A stretch of DNA of 64,000 bases from Bradyrhizobium sp. CCBAU 051011 (lineage in GTDB: Bacteria; Pseudomonadota; Alphaproteobacteria; Rhizobiales; Xanthobacteraceae). The translations under genes were made by a program, and so were the position numbers. The notes under the pieces were generated by a model that worked only from the letters and a program-made list of their open reading frames with translations, was not told the origin of the DNA and did not search any database. The stretch spans positions 6,490,501 to 6,554,500 of the forward strand of contig NZ_CP022222.1 of assembly GCF_009930815.1 (NCBI RefSeq). Reading direction: 5' to 3'. Below, piece by piece: positions 3,591-10,867 of the stretch; position 1 is the stretch's first letter, and each line of letters opens with the position of its first letter.

Positions 3591-4568
3591 TCAATGGCGG
3601 GGCCGGTGGGCTCGCGTCGCCGCCTGTTGGTCGCGCCGTCCGTCTGCTTTTGTCGGCCATCGCTTGTCGCTGATGGCGGCATGGACGACCTCGATCATGG
3701 TCTTGCGCACCTCGAGGAAAGCTTTTGTCAGTGGCCGGTCCGCCAGCGAAACCAGCGCGAGTGCGCGCGTCAGCGGCGGATCGATAATGCGGCGCGCGTG
3801 ATATTTCTCCGCTTCGAGGTCGGCAAGCACGCTGGCGCGGGCGAGGATGGCGCAGCCTAATCCGGCCTCCAGCGCCATGCGCAGCGCAGACAGGGAACCG
3901 ACTTCGAGCGTGTCGCTCGGGATGATTTGATTGCGCAGAACCTGGGTCTGGATGATGGCGCGCGAAGCCGGCATCGGCGCCAGTCCGAGCACGCTTCGTT
4001 GCGGAATGGCGGAGAAGGCGACCGGACCGGATGATCGGCCGATCAGACTCGGATGCCCGACGAGATAGAGGTCTTCTTCCCCGAGCAACTCGACGTCCAG
4101 GCGGGCGTCCCTCGGCGGGTTATAGGCGAGCGCGAGATCGACGGTCCCTGAGAATACGCGCTCGATCAGCGCCGGCGACAGCGCCTCGACGACCGTCAGG
4201 TGCACGCCCGGAGATTTCGTTCGCACCGCCTTCATGACATCGAGCGCGACCATGGAGATCGCGGTGTGGCTGAGGCCGATGCAGACCGGACCGGCCGCGG
4301 CCTCGTTATAGGTCCGCACATCCTCTTCGGCCTTGCCGAGCGCCGACAGCACGGCGCTGGCGTGCTCGTAAAGCCGCCGGCCGGCCGCAGTCAGTGCGAT
4401 GCCGCGCGGCCGTCGCTCCAGCAGCTTGACGCCAAGATCGGTTTCGAGCGCGGCGATGTGGTGGCTTAGCGCCGATTGGGCGACATTGAGCGCCTCCGCG
4501 GCGCGCGACAATACGCCGGCGTCGGCGATGGCGATGAAATAGCGAAGCTGCCGCAATCCGAGCGCCAT
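3591..4568 (-). CDS. LysR-family transcriptional regulator
   Basis: 325 aa. The N-terminal winged helix-turn-helix (about residues 3-62: LRQLRYFIAIADAGVLSRAA, then SALSHHIAALE) and the effector-binding fold after residue 90 are typical of LysR regulators. The SHHIAALE helix resembles the Nac/Cbl-like group. About 25 extra basic residues follow the usual C-terminus. It is divergent from the lyase/CoA-transferase/hydratase cluster across a 121-nt gap. LysR proteins commonly control the operon they face, so it probably senses the substrate or an intermediate of that pathway. The ligand is unknown. Confidence 0.93.
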   Translation of the reverse strand: MALGLRQLRYFIAIADAGVLSRAAEALNVAQSALSHHIAALETDLGVKLLERRPRGIALTAAGRRLYEHASAVLSALGKAEEDVRTYNEAAAGPVCIGLSHTAISMVALDVMKAVRTKSPGVHLTVVEALSPALIERVFSGTVDLALAYNPPRDARLDVELLGEEDLYLVGHPSLIGRSSGPVAFSAIPQRSVLGLAPMPASRAIIQTQVLRNQIIPSDTLEVGSLSALRMALEAGLGCAILARASVLADLEAEKYHARRIIDPPLTRALALVSLADRPLTKAFLEVRKTMIEVVHAAISDKRWPTKADGRRDQQAATRAHRPRH

Positions 4569-4689
4569 TGAACCGCTCCTGCCATCGAATTATCAGAACA
4601 GAATGATCTTCATATTATATTTGTCAGATGTCTAGGCGCGCGGCAAGCTGGCCGGCAACCAAAGGGACTTTCAGGAGGAGCGCCGGCAC
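4569..4689. promoter_or_regulatory. Divergent control region between LysR gene and catabolic cluster
   Basis: 121 nt separate the two divergent start codons. An AT-rich block at about 4588-4630 stands out in GC-rich surroundings and should hold both promoters and the LysR binding site. A ribosome site (CAGGAGGAG) lies just before the lyase start. No single LysR box could be fixed with confidence. Confidence 0.45.
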
Positions 4690-5646
4690 ATGGATCTGCC
4701 CGATAGTGTCGTGATCACCGAGGAGGGGCCCCGCGAAGGCTTTCAGATCGAGCCCGGCCCGGTGGCCACCGCCGACAAGATCGCGCTGATCGACGCGCTC
4801 TCCGCCTGCGGGCTTCGCCGGATCCAGGCCGGCTCCTTCGTCAATCCTAAGCACGTTCCGGGCTGGGCCGACGCCGAGGCTGTGATGGAAGGATTCACTC
4901 CGCGTGAAGGCGTCGAATACTCCGCGCTGTGGTTCAACGAGAGCGGACTGCAGCGCGCGCTTGCCTTCAGGAGGAAGCTGACCCTTGCCGGCTTCATTTC
5001 GCTGAGCGCATCCGAACCGTTCGCAATCAGAAACCTCAACCGCGACCGCGCCGGACAAATTGAGGCGATGCGCAACTATGTGCGAGTGCACCGGGAAGCC
5101 GATGTACCGATTGCCAAAATCATCATTATGGCCGCGTTCGGCTGCAATTTTGCGGGCGACGTCTCGCCGGCGAAGGTCGTCGAGACGGTGGCGGACGGGC
5201 TTGCGATTGCGCGCGAAGCCGGCGTGGACGTGCGGGACATTTCGCTTGCGGACTCCATGGGCTGGGCCACGCCCTGGCGTGTAGCTGCCGCCATTGGCGC
5301 CGTTCGCGAGCGCTGGGGCGATATGCGGATCGCGCTGCACCTCCACGACACCCGCGGGCAGGGCATCGCCTGCGCTTACGAAGGCCTGCGGCTCGGCGTG
5401 ACTGCATTCGACGCGGCGGTGGCCGGGCTCGGCGGGTGTCCGTTTGCCGGCCAGCCAGGCGCGCCGGGCAACATCGCCACCGAAGAACTGGCCTTGCTCT
5501 GCGAGGAGATGGGCATCTCCACGGGCCTCGACATCGAGGCGCTGATCGAGGCCGGGCGGCTTGCCGAGCGGATCGTCGGACACCGACTGCCGAGCGCCGC
5601 GTTGCGATCGGGAACGCTCGCCGCATTCAGGAGACGGGCTGCATGA
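4690..5646 (+). CDS. Hydroxymethylglutaryl-CoA lyase family protein
   Basis: 318 aa DRE-TIM-type metallolyase. The HMG-CoA lyase pattern is complete: REG arginine at 15, DSMGW at 188-192, metal-binding HLHDTRGQG at 217-225, and the active-site cysteine C250 in GLGGCPFAG. Such enzymes cleave 3-hydroxy-3-methyl acyl-CoAs to acetyl-CoA plus a keto acid, or pyruvate plus acetyl-CoA for citramalyl-CoA-like substrates. It is the first gene of the cluster and overlaps the CoA-transferase by ATGA, so the product of one enzyme probably feeds the other. True HMG-CoA lyase of leucine breakdown normally sits with carboxylase genes. None is present here, so another 3-hydroxy-3-methyl acid is likely. Confidence 0.88.
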   Translation: MDLPDSVVITEEGPREGFQIEPGPVATADKIALIDALSACGLRRIQAGSFVNPKHVPGWADAEAVMEGFTPREGVEYSALWFNESGLQRALAFRRKLTLAGFISLSASEPFAIRNLNRDRAGQIEAMRNYVRVHREADVPIAKIIIMAAFGCNFAGDVSPAKVVETVADGLAIAREAGVDVRDISLADSMGWATPWRVAAAIGAVRERWGDMRIALHLHDTRGQGIACAYEGLRLGVTAFDAAVAGLGGCPFAGQPGAPGNIATEELALLCEEMGISTGLDIEALIEAGRLAERIVGHRLPSAALRSGTLAAFRRRAA

Positions 5647-6860
5647 CGACGTCCTCCAGGCCGCTTGCGGGGCTGAAAGTGCTCGATTTCGGCCACACCA
5701 TCATGGGGCCGTGCGCCGGCGTCCTGTTCGCCGATCTCGGCGCCGACGTCGTCAAGATCGAGCCGGCCGACGGCGATCCGACGCGGCGGTTGCCGGGCTT
5801 TGCCGCCGGTTTCTTCGCGACCTACAACCGCAACAAGCGCTCGATCGCGATCGACCTGAAGCGGCCGGAGGGGCAGGCGGTTGTGCATCGGCTGGTCAGA
5901 GATGCCGATGTCGTGCTGGAGAATTTCGGTCCAGGCACCATCGAACGTCTCAAATGCAGTTGGGAGGATCTGCGTCAGATCAATCCGCGCCTCGTCTATC
6001 TCTCGATGAAAGGTTTTCTGAAGGGACCGTACGAGAACCGTGGTGCGCTGGATGAAGTGGTGCAGATGCAGTCCGGGCTCGCCTACATGACCGGCCCTCC
6101 CGGCCGGCCGTTGCGCGCCGGCGCGCCTGTGATCGACATTCTCGGCGGCGTGTTCGGCGTCGTGGCCGCGTTGTCGGCGCTACGCGAGCGCGACGTCACC
6201 GGCATCGGGCAAAAGGTTGCGAGTTCGCTGTTTGAAAGCGCAACTTTCATGCTCGGCGCGGTCGTCGTCGGCAGCGCGGTGACGGGCGGGCCGATGCCGC
6301 CGATGCCGGCACGGAAAAATGCCTGGGGCGTGTATGACGTTTTCACCGCCTCCGACGGCGGTCAGGTCTTCATCGGCTGCACCTCGGATGGTCACTGGCA
6401 GCGCTTTTGCGATGCGTTCGGCTTCGACGAATGGCGCGACGATCCGAGGCTTACCGGCAACGCCAACCGCTGCGAGGCGCGGGAGTGGATGCTGCCCGAA
6501 CTGGAGCGGCGGATCAGCAAACTGCCGCTGAACGAAATCCTCCAAAAGTGCGAGGCGGCCCGCGTCGCCTATTCGCGGGTGGGGCGGCCCGATGAACTGT
6601 CGATCGATCCGCATCTGCTCGCCAATGGCGGGCTGCTTGCGACCGCCGTATCGGCATTCGGTGGCGGACCGCTGGTTGGAATTCCGGCCTTGCCTGTTGA
6701 ATTCGGCGAGGCGCGCGAAAGGCCGGGGCTCGTGCGGCAGCCACCGCGGGTCGGCGAGCACGCCGACGAAATTCTGCAGGCGGCCGGATATTCGGAGCGT
6801 GAAATTGCGGACTTGCGCTCGGCCGGTGTGCTGGGGGCGGTCGTGAGCGTGCCGGCATAG
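5643..6860 (+). CDS. CaiB/BaiF (class III) CoA-transferase
   Basis: 405 aa. Begins with the family hallmark PLAGLKVLDFGHTIMGPCAG and continues with LGADVVKIEP and NRNKRSIAIDLKRPEG. The likely catalytic aspartate is D137 in NRGALDEVVQMQSGLAYMTG. Class III enzymes move CoA between carboxylic acids. The ATG at 5643 overlaps the lyase stop and fits the family start; longer upstream extensions of the frame are overlap with the lyase gene. In this cluster it most simply makes the acyl-CoA that the lyase cleaves. The donor CoA ester is unknown. Confidence 0.92.
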   Translation: MTTSSRPLAGLKVLDFGHTIMGPCAGVLFADLGADVVKIEPADGDPTRRLPGFAAGFFATYNRNKRSIAIDLKRPEGQAVVHRLVRDADVVLENFGPGTIERLKCSWEDLRQINPRLVYLSMKGFLKGPYENRGALDEVVQMQSGLAYMTGPPGRPLRAGAPVIDILGGVFGVVAALSALRERDVTGIGQKVASSLFESATFMLGAVVVGSAVTGGPMPPMPARKNAWGVYDVFTASDGGQVFIGCTSDGHWQRFCDAFGFDEWRDDPRLTGNANRCEAREWMLPELERRISKLPLNEILQKCEAARVAYSRVGRPDELSIDPHLLANGGLLATAVSAFGGGPLVGIPALPVEFGEARERPGLVRQPPRVGEHADEILQAAGYSEREIADLRSAGVLGAVVSVPA

Positions 6861-6924
6861 CGGCGACTAAAAAGAGCGGTTCAACCGCCTTCGCGAAACA
6901 AAATAGTCAGGGAGGAGACGGAAC

Positions 6925-7911
6925 ATGATTTCCGACAGCCTGCTTCGAGCGAAAGCACCCATTCTCCGCGTCGCGATGGCGCTGGTTGCGATGGCGCCAA
7001 TTGCCAACGCGCAGCCATACCCATCGCGGTCGATTACCATGCTCGTCGGCTATTCCGCGGGCGGGCAGGCCGATGCGCTGGCCAGGATCATCGGCAAGCA
7101 GCTCGGCGAGAACCTCAAGGTATCCGTCGTCATTGAGAACAAGACGGGCGCCAACGGCATGATCGCGGCGCAGGCGGCAGCACGGTCCGAGCCCGACGGA
7201 TACACCGTCCTGATGGTGACGGATGCGATGGTCACCATCGATCCGCACCTCGCCACCAGCAACCATTTCGACCTTTCGACGGCGATGGAGCCGGTCGTCA
7301 ACGTGGCGTGGTCGCCGCTTCTGCTGGCCGCGGCCAACAATGTGCCGGCGAATTCGGTGGCCGAGCTGGTCGCGCTCGGCAAGCAGAAGACGCAGAATTT
7401 GAGTTTCGGCAGTCCGGGCAGCTCGACGCCGCACCGTCTCGCCGGCGAGATGCTACAGAAGTATGGCGGCTTCACCATGACCCATATTCCCTACAAGGGA
7501 ACGGCGGCCTCGGTGAACGACCTCCTGGGCGGGCAGATCCCGCTGCTGTTCGGCGCGCCCACGGCGGTGGAGCCGCTGGCGACCGCGGGGAAGATCAAGG
7601 TGCTCGGCGTCACCTCGGAGAAGCGCCATCCGCTGCTGCCCAACGTGCCCGCGATCAGCGAGACGTTCCCAGGGTTCAAGACCATCAGCTATATCGGCTT
7701 CATGCTGCCGAAGAAGACCCCGGCGCCCGTGATCGCGACCCTGAACAAGGAAGTGAACCAGATACTTGCATCAGACACGATGCGCGCCTGGCTGGACAAG
7801 CAGGGCATGGTCGCCGTCGGCGGCACGCCTGATGATTTCAAGCGCCAGATCGCGGTCGACTATCAGGCGCGCGGTGAACTGGTCCGCGCTCTCGGTATTA
7901 CCGCCGAGTGA
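6925..7911 (+). CDS. Bug-family (TctC-like) tripartite tricarboxylate transporter binding protein
   Basis: 328 aa. A signal peptide ends at about residue 29 (PIANAQPYPSRSI). The mature start YPSRSITMLVGYSAGGQAD and the segments ENKTGANGMIAAQAAA and HIPYKGTAASVNDLLGGQIP are typical of Bug periplasmic binding proteins, which capture di- and tricarboxylates. No TctA/TctB membrane genes are in the window, so it may serve a permease encoded elsewhere or act as a sensor. It is preceded by GGGAGGAG 64 nt after the CoA-transferase and followed by the hydratase after 14 nt, so it appears to belong to the same operon. Confidence 0.92.
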   Translation: MISDSLLRAKAPILRVAMALVAMAPIANAQPYPSRSITMLVGYSAGGQADALARIIGKQLGENLKVSVVIENKTGANGMIAAQAAARSEPDGYTVLMVTDAMVTIDPHLATSNHFDLSTAMEPVVNVAWSPLLLAAANNVPANSVAELVALGKQKTQNLSFGSPGSSTPHRLAGEMLQKYGGFTMTHIPYKGTAASVNDLLGGQIPLLFGAPTAVEPLATAGKIKVLGVTSEKRHPLLPNVPAISETFPGFKTISYIGFMLPKKTPAPVIATLNKEVNQILASDTMRAWLDKQGMVAVGGTPDDFKRQIAVDYQARGELVRALGITAE

Positions 7912-7925
7912 GAAAGGGTGGCATC

Positions 7926-9884
7926 GTGGCGACCGCATCGAACGAACAGGTCCGGTTTGACGGCCGCATCCTGTTTCTTTCTGAGAACGCCGACATGGTT
8001 GAGCGCCAATTGCATGGAGCGGATATTTCGCTGGCTGACGCGTTGCCGTTGCGCAGCGACGTGTCGACCGACGAAATCACGCCGGCCGCGATCTGCTACT
8101 ATTACGACGAGAAACTCGGGGATTATCCCTATCACGGCCTGAAATGCGGTCAGCGCCTGCCGGTGTCGGTGGGCAGCGTCAAGGCTGGCGGATTCGGTGT
8201 GACGGTGGCTGGACGCCGCTATGGCAAGGGCTCTTCGCGCGAGGCCAGCCCTTATGCCGAGTGGTGCGCCGGCATCCGGCTGGTGATTGCGGAAAGTTTT
8301 GAGCGCATCTATCGGCAGAACTGCCGTAATCTCGGCATCTACACCTCGACCGACTTCGGGTTGGTCGAACGCATCCGCCGCGGCGAGAGCATTCCGATCA
8401 GCGAGTTTACGCACGGGGAGGACGAACTCACCGCGGAGCTCATTCGCCGGGGAGGGCTGTTCAAGCTGACACGGGCACGAAAAGACGGATGGTCGCCGGC
8501 GGCGCACGTTACCGCATCGCGGCCGATGACCTATGCCGAAAAGATCATCGCGCGCGCTTCCACCGGCAATCGCGATGCGGTCTGTCCCGGCCAGGCCATC
8601 TTCGCGACGGCCGACTGGCGCTATGCCCATGAATACGTGACGCCGATGTGCGTCAGCTTTCTCGAGCGGGAAATGGGCGATCAGATTGCGTTGCACGACC
8701 GCGCGAGCATCGTCTGCTTCGGCGATCACTTGCCTTTCATTCATCGGAGCATGTCACCGGAGCGGCGTGCGCGGGGGCTGCTTGAAGCGGCGCAGGCCCT
8801 GGCCAAGGTCCAGCAGCAATTCTGCGAGACGCACGGGCTGCGCTTGCACGGCTACCTCGTGGACCGCGATGGTTCGGAAGGCATCAGCCACTCGATCATG
8901 GCCGAGCGCTACGTGAAACCGGGCCAATTGGTCGTCGGCACCGACTCCCATACGCCCCATTGCGGTGCCTTGGGCGCATTGGCGTTCGGCATCGGTACGA
9001 CCGAGATGGCGAATGCCTGGGTGACGGGAGAGGTGCGCGTCGAAGTGCCTCGGACCTGCCGCGTGCGGCTCAATGGCCGGATACCGGCAGGCGTCGAGGC
9101 AAAGGATATCGTCCTGCATTTGCTGCGCTTGCCGTACGTTCGCGGGGGAAAGGCGATCGGTCAGGTGATCGAGTATTGCGGCGAAGCGCTATCGAGCCTG
9201 TCCACCGACGAACGCGCAACCCTGACCAACATGGTGGCGGAGATAGGTGGTTTCAGCGGGATTGTGGTCCCCGACGAGGAGACGTGCCGATTTGTCAGGG
9301 AGCGCCGCGGTATCGAGCTGCAGCTTGAGCCGTGGATGTGTAGCGACGACGAGGCTGAGTTCGCGCAGCTCATCGACGTTGAATGCGACCGGCTAGAGCC
9401 GATGCTGGCGAGGCCCGGCGATCCCGGATACGGCGTCGCCATATCGGAGTTGGCTGAGACGGTGGGAATCGATATCGCCTATGGCGGCTCATGCACCGGC
9501 GGCAAGCGTGAGGATCTCTTGCATTACCATGCCGTGCTCGAATGGGCTGCAAAGCATGGCATGCGCGTTGCCTCGGGAACGCGGTTCTTCCTTCAGTTCG
9601 GCAGCCAGGATGTTCGCGACTATTGCCTGCAGCGCGGAATGCTCGACGTGTTCGAACGCGCCGGCGTCGAATTGATCGAGCCGGGATGTGGCGCCTGCGT
9701 GAATGCTGGTCCCGGTGTCTCGGAGCGCGCCGATCAGGTGACGGTGAGTGCGATCAATCGCAATTTCCCGGGACGCTCCGGACCGGGACAGGTCTGGCTG
9801 GCAAGCCCGTCGACGGTCGCGGCCAGCGCGATCGCCGGCCGGATCGTGAGCTTTGAGCAACTGCGTGCCCAGTTATCGTCCTGA
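7926..9884 (+). CDS. Aconitase/3-isopropylmalate dehydratase-family hydratase with N-terminal swivel domain
   Basis: 652 aa. Both parts of a LeuCD-type enzyme lie in one chain but in reverse order: a LeuD-like swivel domain first (YGKGSSREASPYAE at 99-112, SFERIYRQN at 124-132), then the catalytic part (GTDSHTP at 338-344, INRNFPGRSGPGQVWLASP near 610-628). Three cysteines are placed to bind the 4Fe-4S cluster: C523 in GGSCTGGK, and C588 and C591 in EPGCGACV. The usual SCTN is SCTG. The GTG at 7926 is chosen because AAAGGG sits 8 nt before it. The probable reaction is hydration or isomerisation of an unsaturated di- or tricarboxylate such as citraconate or an aconitate analogue. Confidence 0.85.
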   Translation: MATASNEQVRFDGRILFLSENADMVERQLHGADISLADALPLRSDVSTDEITPAAICYYYDEKLGDYPYHGLKCGQRLPVSVGSVKAGGFGVTVAGRRYGKGSSREASPYAEWCAGIRLVIAESFERIYRQNCRNLGIYTSTDFGLVERIRRGESIPISEFTHGEDELTAELIRRGGLFKLTRARKDGWSPAAHVTASRPMTYAEKIIARASTGNRDAVCPGQAIFATADWRYAHEYVTPMCVSFLEREMGDQIALHDRASIVCFGDHLPFIHRSMSPERRARGLLEAAQALAKVQQQFCETHGLRLHGYLVDRDGSEGISHSIMAERYVKPGQLVVGTDSHTPHCGALGALAFGIGTTEMANAWVTGEVRVEVPRTCRVRLNGRIPAGVEAKDIVLHLLRLPYVRGGKAIGQVIEYCGEALSSLSTDERATLTNMVAEIGGFSGIVVPDEETCRFVRERRGIELQLEPWMCSDDEAEFAQLIDVECDRLEPMLARPGDPGYGVAISELAETVGIDIAYGGSCTGGKREDLLHYHAVLEWAAKHGMRVASGTRFFLQFGSQDVRDYCLQRGMLDVFERAGVELIEPGCGACVNAGPGVSERADQVTVSAINRNFPGRSGPGQVWLASPSTVAASAIAGRIVSFEQLRAQLSS

Positions 9885-9905: not shown

Positions 9906-10376
9906 CTACGATTTCTTCCGAGCGCGCGAGGTCGCTCTCGCTGATGTATTCAGCGCGGCGGCCTCGCGGATCAGCGCCTTCAACGCCTTCTCATCGATCT
10001 TGTCGCCCTGATGGAAATCGATGGCGCGTCGGGTGTTGCCTTCGAGGCTGGAGTTGAAGAGGTCCGTCGGGTCGTCCAGCGAGGCGCCCTTGGCGAAGGT
10101 CATCTTCACGACCGCCTTGTAGGTCTCGCCGGTGCAGATGATTCCGTCGTGCTCCCACACCGGAACGCCGCGCCACTTCCACTCTTCGACCACGTCGGGA
10201 ACGGCCCGCTTGATGATGCTTCTGATCCGCGCGAGCATCTCGCCTCGCCAATCGCCCAGCTCCTTGATACGCGCATCGATATTCTGAGAGGGAGAGCTTC
10301 CGCCTTTTGCTTCGCTCGCGCCGCTCTTCGTCATGCTTGTCGTCGCCTTCTTCATAGCTGTTGTCGTTCCGCTCAC
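9906..10376 (-). CDS. DUF1801 domain protein (first of a tandem pair)
   Basis: 156 aa. The DUF1801 core runs from about residue 32 (IDARIKELGDWRGEMLARIR) through EEWKWRGVPVWEHDGIICTG to the C-terminus. The family has a small mixed alpha/beta fold, often found next to SRPBCC and ArsR genes, with no proven activity. Both ends are rich in Lys, Ser and Ala. The GTG start overlaps the stop of the preceding gene (GTGA); an ATG seven codons in, at 10355, is a possible alternative. It is the last gene of the operon that begins with arsR at 11886. Confidence 0.8.
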   Translation of the reverse strand: MSGTTTAMKKATTSMTKSGASEAKGGSSPSQNIDARIKELGDWRGEMLARIRSIIKRAVPDVVEEWKWRGVPVWEHDGIICTGETYKAVVKMTFAKGASLDDPTDLFNSSLEGNTRRAIDFHQGDKIDEKALKALIREAAALNTSARATSRARKKS

Positions 10377-10867
10377 AATTGTTCGCCAGGCAGTTGGCTT
10401 GCCTGCTTCACCCAGGCAACGAACTGCGCTTCGTCAAGGGCGCCCTCATGGATGTCGAGATAACGCACTTCATTATGCTTGGATTCGCCTGAAGGGACAG
10501 GGCGCAGCGATGTACCGCGGAAGAATGTCACTTTGACGTACTTGGTGAAGCAATGAAAGCTGAGGAACCAGGGGCCCTGTTCCTCGACACCATAAAACGG
10601 CGAATTCCATTTGATCGCCTTGTGCACGCCGGGGACGGTGCGCACGATCAGCGCGTCGAGCTGGCGCCCGAGGTCGCGCTTCCAGCCCGGCATGGCCGCG
10701 ATGTAGGCCTGCACGGGGGCGTCGCCGTACCCCTTGGCGATCTGAGGGTTGCCGCCCGAGAGCAACACAGGCTTTGTGGCGGGCTGCTTGGCAACGGCCT
10801 TCTTGGCAGCGACCTTCTTGGCCGCCTTCGCCGGCCGTTTCGACGTCGTTTGCGCCATGGCGTTCAC
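10373..10867 (-). CDS. DUF1801 domain protein with histone-like Lys/Ala-rich N-terminus
   Basis: 164 aa. The first 35 residues are a Lys/Ala repeat (RPAKAAKKVAAKKAVAKQPA) like bacterial H1-type tails. The DUF1801 domain follows (YIAAMPGWKRDLGRQLDALI, then KAIKWNSPFYG). It is a paralogue of the downstream gene at 9906-10376 and is translationally coupled to it. The tail could bind nucleic acid or polyphosphate, which is an inference from composition only. The gene lies 14 nt below the small membrane protein gene. Confidence 0.82.
   Translation of the reverse strand: MNAMAQTTSKRPAKAAKKVAAKKAVAKQPATKPVLLSGGNPQIAKGYGDAPVQAYIAAMPGWKRDLGRQLDALIVRTVPGVHKAIKWNSPFYGVEEQGPWFLSFHCFTKYVKVTFFRGTSLRPVPSGESKHNEVRYLDIHEGALDEAQFVAWVKQASQLPGEQL

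Follow-up and report, generated by a model that had tools for sequence, protein, structure and literature searches.

A LysR-linked gene run of Bradyrhizobium that may break down an imported 2-substituted malate, possibly of the benzylmalate type

Introduction

Which acid is broken down by the products of four same-strand genes, for a lyase, a class III CoA-transferase, a Bug-type periplasmic binding protein and a fused aconitase-family hydratase, that stand opposite a lysR gene in Bradyrhizobium sp. CCBAU 051011? The genes lie in a stretch of 64,000 nucleotides (the window; positions 6,490,501 to 6,554,500 of contig NZ_CP022222.1) that is part of a single-contig genome of 9.1 Mb. A preliminary description of this DNA proposed import, hydration, CoA transfer and cleavage, in that order, of citraconate or a citramalate-like compound. 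Our own reading, in which belief and doubt are about balanced, is that the genes form a catabolic operon under LysR control whose imported substrate is a 2-substituted malate, with a 2-(hydroxybenzyl)malate of the eucomate type as the most likely candidate. The reactions, the substrate and the regulation are all inferred from protein families, gene order, an operator-like block, active-site motifs, recurrence and neighbouring genes. The core chemistry, from a 2-substituted malate to acetyl-CoA and a 2-oxo acid, is likely; the aryl identity of the side chain is an even call, and eucomate itself as the substrate is less secure than that.

Results

Neighbourhoods of the fused hydratase were compared in a non-random survey of 110 stretches (L004-L033 and 80 picked by hand from longer lists, some loci being present twice, as L019/L138 and L009/L091). 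L024 and L085 were dropped because they hold no usable hydratase, which left 109 rows with the window included, or 71 representatives at 90% identity. The codon-based gene caller found each of the 58 annotated genes, which were also its training set. Within 8 kb of the 71 representative hydratases we counted a lyase at 13, a transferase at 21, a Bug protein at 21, a major facilitator superfamily (MFS) carrier at 27, an indolepyruvate-ferredoxin-oxidoreductase (IOR)-like gene at 10, 4-hydroxyphenylpyruvate dioxygenase (HPPD) at 4 and RraA at 5; the tally overlooked the L142 lyase and included an edge fragment at L149, two errors that happen to cancel in the lyase total. The lyase, transferase and hydratase are found side by side again, with different transporters, in Paraburkholderia, Caballeronia, Roseomonas and Microvirga, which gives good support to the earlier proposal that a CoA-transferase and a lyase of the 3-hydroxy-3-methylglutaryl-CoA (HMG-CoA) lyase type (HMGL) release acetyl-CoA and a 2-oxo acid from an imported acid. 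The carrier in lyase-bearing loci is a Bug protein in Bradyrhizobium, an MFS protein in Paraburkholderia and Caballeronia, and an ABC transporter in Microvirga (L030). On Roseomonas plasmids the lyase and transferase are fused (751 residues in L029 and, from its coordinates, 755 in L209), and the gene for the fusion overlaps the hydratase gene.

Aromatic-acid genes accompany several of these relatives. HPPD is encoded with the lyase and transferase at five of the 109 loci (L010, L026, L027, L088 and L093). The window's hydratase clade (support 0.999) includes the Burkholderiaceae-type lyase-transferase-HPPD-MFS-hydratase clusters L026, L027 and L093; L010, more than 90% identical to a tree representative, is likewise an HPPD cluster, and at L088 the HPPD gene lies within the lyase-transferase run, with a hydratase of another clade. 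The L026 protein is, judged by its matches to the P. fluorescens-type enzyme 1cjx (E 2e-187) and to TIGR01263 (391 bits against a cut-off of 277), a standard HPPD. The genome of L093 (G789) holds a further HPPD above the cut-off elsewhere, and in the genome of L088 (G231) the cluster copy is the sole one above it.

Homoprotocatechuate genes form the other link, in which the lyase and transferase make the connection to the window. In two Bradyrhizobium genomes, G439 and G489 (L213-L216), a lyase (82% and 80% identical) and a transferase (86% and 85%) lie near genes for HpaD (414 bits against 321 in both), HpaE (768 against 638; L214 of G439) and an HpaG-like protein that scores under its cut-off. 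A thiamine pyrophosphate (TPP) enzyme of a nameless subfamily is encoded near the lyase-transferase pair (L213, L216), and L216, from G489, encodes an aldehyde dehydrogenase that matches the model of phenylacetaldehyde dehydrogenase StyD best, at 703, below the cut-off of 850. A LysR protein 61% identical to that of the window stands at the start of this row of genes in G439. The MFS carriers of L213, L214, L216, L217 and L219 are 50-54% identical to that of the HPPD cluster. HpaD scored above its cut-off in all 11 genomes chosen, and the genome of CCBAU 051011 encodes both HPPD and HpaD above their cut-offs.

If one 2-oxo acid supplies HPPD in one lineage and, in another, a TPP enzyme, an aldehyde dehydrogenase and HpaD, the simplest candidate is a hydroxyphenylpyruvate. 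The HPPD and Hpa neighbours suggest an arylpyruvate product, and cleavage to such a product and acetyl-CoA would mean that the transferase acts on a 2-(arylmethyl)malate. Such a compound is made by plants: 2-(4-hydroxybenzyl)malate, or eucomic acid, is taken to be the (R) form according to PMC3213623, and eucomic acid is recorded in orchids (PMC9477820). By the account in PMC6689899, TIM-barrel HMG-CoA lyases take (S)-HMG-CoA and the (S)-citramalyl group is the counterpart of (R)-HMG, so that an HMGL-type lyase is expected to take (R)-malates; by our own reasoning from the Cahn-Ingold-Prelog rules, (R)-eucomic acid has the same spatial sense.

In the pathway that we propose, the Bug protein would capture the imported acid, the class III CoA-transferase would load CoA onto the CH2-COOH arm of the 2-substituted malate, and the HMGL-like lyase would cleave the thioester to acetyl-CoA and an arylpyruvate. 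The latter would pass to homogentisate through HPPD or enter the homoprotocatechuate route, either being encoded at another place in the genome. The fused aconitase-family enzyme, a dispensable component, would turn a 3-substituted malate or an unsaturated acid into the 2-substituted malate used by the transferase, and the LysR protein would control the operon.

That the hydratase is dispensable is suggested by its distribution within the genus. The complete run is kept at the Bradyrhizobium loci L004, L005, L006, L008, L014 and L023, and at L007, from a metagenome-assembled genome, the four genes are kept and the contig ends without the lysR portion; this conservation indicates that the adjacency is more than chance. 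Searches with the lyase and with the hydratase each covered 242 genomes of the genus, apparently the same set. The lyase was found at E <= 1e-110 in 33 genomes (at least 80% identical in 29 of them) and the hydratase at E <= 1e-90 in 11 (at least 85% identical in nine and 54% in two). All nine genomes with the close hydratase had the lyase about 3.25 kb off, start to start. However, 20 of the 29 genomes with an orthologous lyase had no fused hydratase at that threshold, so hydration is not obligatory, which alters the scheme of the preliminary description. Among the 17 of these 20 that were examined (G479, G490 and G581 lay outside), 12 kept LysR, lyase, transferase and Bug with no hydratase found; three (L220, L226 and L227) had LeuC-like and LeuD-like genes directly after the Bug gene, with scores in L220 of 579.7 against 560 for leuC and 163 against 116 for leuD, and in L226 and L227 a likeness by similarity only; the remaining two (L214 and L216) lie within the homoprotocatechuate-gene neighbourhood described above.

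The window lyase carries the motif PREGFQ (R15, E16), together with Q46, H217/H219, C250 and N261, and has two extra residues in the Cys loop. In this protein and its orthologues PREGFQ replaces PRDGLQ, and Gln replaces Glu at the third DRE position; the R15-E16 and Q46 pattern, as against R-D and E, is the same in all seven aligned orthologues and also in L187 and L188. We take the replaced Asp to be the metal ligand of HMG-CoA lyase and the replaced Glu to be one of its conserved functional residues. The window lyase passes the leucine-type profile PRK05692, and the leucine-type DRE residues (Arg-Asp, Glu) are not kept in it. The Glu, together with an insertion, was also found in proteins encoded on plasmids of Variovorax, Diaphorobacter, Polaromonas and roseobacters, with a variable third DRE position and at times beside acyl-CoA carboxylase genes. 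Lyases of this clade in L178, L180-L183 and L186 are annotated as HMG-CoA lyase and adjoin TPP enzymes, MmgE/PrpD proteins or acyl-CoA carboxylases. In the HPPD clusters the lyases keep the ordinary Asp and Glu, so that two lyase clades would perform the same chemistry if the benzylmalate proposal is right.

A profile search of the CCBAU 051011 genome gave six PF00682 matches, and with the window lyase as query two relatives 37-38% identical were found. One of them (L002) lies directly after an open reading frame (ORF) that by eye resembles a biotin-carboxylase subunit, and is likely the leucine-pathway HMG-CoA lyase of this genome; as a gene fitting that role lies elsewhere, we rejected a leucine-type HMG-CoA lyase function for the window copy. 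Family profiles found no leucine-degradation gene in the window's gene run. The reported absence of a leucine gene set needs a correction: the window lacks a leucine-type HMG-CoA lyase, but the genome has one, at L002. A third HMGL-like lyase of this genome (L003, 1477-2424) is 41-45% identical to the cluster lyases of Burkholderiaceae, Roseomonas and Microvirga, and is nearer to them than the window lyase is.

Asp165 of the window transferase aligns with the catalytic-Asp position of class III enzymes, and presumably has that role. The seven NCBIfam models that it matches all score under their cut-offs, and among PDB entries it matches the succinate-HMG CoA-transferase 9br7 (E 1.3e-45). It is 45-52% identical to transferases beside other fused hydratases. 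Overall, the identity among hydratase-linked transferases is 45-62% across contexts and higher within them, compared with 27-36% to other transferases of the same stretches (row L033_14, a lyase that passed the length filter, was excluded from this table). PDB relatives of the window Bug protein are Bug27, a terephthalate-binding protein and BugD.

The earlier view of the hydratase as a reversed-domain enzyme was borne out. PF00694 matches at residues 92-138, before PF00330 (from residue 229), which places the swivel domain (about 1-190) ahead of the [4Fe-4S] core (about 200-646); the aconitase fold, the three cluster cysteines (Cys 523, 588 and 591) and the active-site motifs are all present. 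In the predicted structure (mean predicted local distance difference test score 90.1) the best Foldseek matches are the large subunits of isopropylmalate isomerase and homoaconitase, and E. coli AcnB aligns with the greater part of the chain (TMq 0.70), so that the domain order is that of the AcnB core. Its nearest named relatives belong to Bradyrhizobium (B. jicamae, 94%). We take the loop after TDEITP to be, in a putative mapping, the substrate recognition region discussed for isopropylmalate isomerase in PMC7308503. It reads ICYYYDEK in the window and hardly differs, if at all, in the HPPD clusters of the same hydratase clade, a likeness that hints only weakly at an arylmalate.

Other roles for the hydratase were considered and set aside. 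The genome has three PF00330 matches, the window copy and two better-scoring genes that, by size and score, appear to be LeuC and aconitase A; genes fitting those roles thus lie elsewhere, and we rejected them for the window copy. The genome also has two tartrate/D-malate-dehydrogenase matches above the cut-off, and in L113 a LeuB-like gene overlaps the hydratase gene, which raised the idea of a maleate hydratase acting with D-malate dehydrogenase; we disfavour it, as it leaves no task for the transferase and lyase. The same L113 run also holds an IOR-like gene and an MFS carrier. At L024 (Bradyrhizobium hereditatis, 10001-10508) the hydratase was found only as disrupted fragments of its C-terminal part.

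The fused aconitase is also found in other settings. In one family, apparently Burkholderiaceae, 126 of 398 sampled genomes gave a match to it, and IOR-like genes lie near 19 of the 109 hydratases (for example at L113, L109 and L138). On a plasmid of Streptomyces sp. KN37 (L193, 10689-14957) a fused enzyme 44% identical to that of the window lies between genes of the LeuA and isopropylmalate-dehydrogenase families in a nonribosomal peptide synthetase/polyketide synthase region, a trio that is probably a 2-oxo-acid chain-extension cassette. HphA, HphCD and HphB act in this order in the homologation of Phe and Tyr, HphCD isomerizing benzylmalates (PMC12961565); the gene kinds of L193 are those of this homologation, so the hydratase family fits an arylmalate substrate. 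The 33 plasmid matches to the fused hydratase include no cyanobacterial record.

The ORF check placed the lysR gene and the four same-strand genes where they had been reported, with the reported coupling (Table 1). The ATGA at 5643-5646 is common to the lyase stop and the transferase ATG, 14 nt separate the Bug and hydratase genes, and a gap of 64 nt between the transferase and Bug genes, missing from the preliminary description, was added; an alternative in-frame GTG for the hydratase at 7908 overlaps the Bug stop. Within the 121-bp divergent gap, an alignment of eight Bradyrhizobium loci shows a strongly conserved 46-bp block; the hydratase is lacking at two of the eight (L187 and L188). The block contains a T-N11-A-type dyad that we read as a putative LysR box. 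One sigma-70-like match was found in the block against 1.1 expected, no better than chance; promoter and terminator scans likewise gave matches at chance level, and scans of the window for Rfam families and tRNAs were empty. Elsewhere in the window, an ORF at 68-1483 by eye resembles a molybdenum hydroxylase large subunit.

Table 1. Features of the gene run and their positions in the window
Feature	Position	Strand	Evidence
LysR-type regulator, divergent	3591..4568	-	PF00126 82 bits, PF03466 103 bits; kept in Bradyrhizobium loci
Conserved intergenic block, putative operator and promoter	4584..4629		LysR-box-like dyad by eye; alignment of 8 loci
HMGL-like lyase	4690..5646	+	PF00682 94.6 bits (cut-off 29); PRK05692 256.2 bits against 246
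Class III (CaiB/BaiF) CoA-transferase	5643..6860	+	PF02515 348 bits
Bug/TctC periplasmic solute-binding protein	6925..7911	+	PF03401 189.5 bits
Fused aconitase-family hydratase/isomerase, GTG start	7926..9884	+	PF00694 then PF00330

Discussion

Several observations weigh against a hydroxybenzylmalate substrate. The window's own cluster holds no aromatic gene, and its link to HPPD runs through the hydratase (75-78% identical) and weakly through the transferase (45-47%), the HPPD-linked lyases being about 35% identical. The hydratase does not look specific to the pathway, since 58 of the 71 representatives have no lyase nearby, and loops of the ICYYYDEK type also occur in lyase-less clusters, including loci of Acidobacteria, Gemmatimonadetes and Planctomycetes. 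At L027 the HPPD was called in two pieces, and the record lists no gene there. The hpa genes are on the strand opposite to the lyase, with a chemoreceptor gene (G439, L214) or a short gene (G489) between, and so appear to be neighbours rather than one operon; these loci lack the hydratase and Bug genes and have an MFS carrier instead. Of the 11 genomes, four (G439, G489, G490 and G581), probably of one lineage, have HpaD no more than about 5 kb from a lyase, and seven do not. If eucomate itself is the substrate, the need for a hydratase is unexplained, and a literature search of titles and abstract openings, covering few subscription journals, gave no report of bacterial growth on eucomate.

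Four independent metabolic genes brought together by chance would account for hydratases that often lack a lyase and for the 20 of 29 lyase genomes with no close hydratase. Close coupling, the linkage of hydratase and lyase in nine of nine genomes of the genus sample, the Roseomonas lyase-transferase fusion adjoining the hydratase, and the LeuC/LeuD-like genes that fill the hydratase slot in L220, L226 and L227 all speak against this explanation, and we think it very improbable. Salvage of free 3-hydroxy-3-methylglutarate, with the transferase acting as a succinate-HMG CoA-transferase and the lyase as HMG-CoA lyase, would suit the match to 9br7 and a lyase score 10 bits over the PRK05692 cut-off. 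However, aconitase-family chemistry is unexpected on HMG, Glu and Gln stand at the metal-ligand Asp and the conserved Glu of the window lyase, and a standard HMG-CoA lyase is encoded at L002, which makes such salvage quite unlikely.

Two further readings keep the proposed chemistry but give it another substrate. In the citraconate or (R)-citramalate scheme, the hydratase would form (R)-citramalate, the transferase (R)-citramalyl-CoA, and the lyase pyruvate and acetyl-CoA. Chloroflexus Sct and Ccl are a precedent for this route, and LeuC-type enzymes include isopropylmalate/citramalate isomerases by their PDB names. The stereochemistry suits an HMGL-type lyase (PMC6689899), and the niche seems open, as P. 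putida with the P. aeruginosa itaconate cluster is described as using neither citraconate nor (R)-citramalate (PMC9875883). But a pyruvate product would not call for HPPD or Hpa genes, and the presence of HPPD in, and of homoprotocatechuate genes near, related clusters would be left unexplained; for this reason we regard the substrate first suggested for these genes as unlikely. The three-enzyme logic permits any side chain, and RraA-like or LeuB-like genes beside some hydratases could fit a different 2-alkylmalate, such as 2-isopropylmalate, or a piscidate-type benzyltartrate. No positive link to alkylmalates turned up, and a benzyltartrate would yield glycolyl-CoA, for whose users no search was made; we consider this group rather unlikely.

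Returning to the benzylmalate proposal, we tentatively extend it, with a little less belief than doubt, to soil and plant-associated bacteria more widely: these may run homophenylalanine/homotyrosine homologation backwards, importing benzylmalates of plants (eucomic acid and its relatives) and using a dedicated class III CoA-transferase and HMGL-like lyases to form acetyl-CoA and hydroxyphenylpyruvate, with the fused, swivel-first isomerase as an optional feeder and the Bradyrhizobium lyases as a distinct Glu-for-Asp clade. Ordinary gene families are here joined in an unusual combination that is probably undescribed; the same limited literature search of titles and abstract openings found no description of this pathway, and the earlier idea that the substrate may be new is supported. 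If correct, the proposal would provide a bacterial route for benzylmalate-type plant acids, a name for a lyase clade now annotated as HMG-CoA lyase, and a substrate class for the fused aconitase.

The proposed system resembles several known ones in part. The window lyase has the fold of HMG-CoA lyase (MvaB/HMGCL) and retains its Arg, HxH, Cys and Asn, but differs by Asp to Glu at the metal ligand, Glu to Gln at a conserved position and two more residues in the Cys loop; it is 34% identical to the leucine-type lyase of its own genome. The hydratase shares the [4Fe-4S] aconitase fold with the isopropylmalate isomerase LeuCD and with AcnB, and the swivel-first order with AcnB; it differs in being a single chain without the HEAT domain of AcnB and in its loop after TDEITP. 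Among the enzymes of the itaconate/(S)-citramalate pathway (Ict, Ich, Ccl), Ccl resembles CitE and Ich has no likeness to aconitase. The window lyase is a PF00682 protein that is not CitE-like and its hydratase a PF00330 protein, in agreement with the reported absence of an itaconate gene set. That pathway likewise joins CoA transfer to a lyase that gives acetyl-CoA and pyruvate (PMC12290011), but with (S) stereochemistry. The homogentisate and homoprotocatechuate routes, likely users of the product, are known pathways outside this operon. In the homologation system of Nostoc punctiforme, HphCD is a fused aconitase. Genes like hphA or hphB were not found in the window's run by family profile search, and such genes are present in Streptomyces L193. 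HphA/HphCD/HphB act on the same C-C bond, joining an arylpyruvate to an acetyl unit, with an isomerase for benzylmalates (PMC12961565), but in the biosynthetic direction and without a CoA-transferase or HMGL-type lyase.

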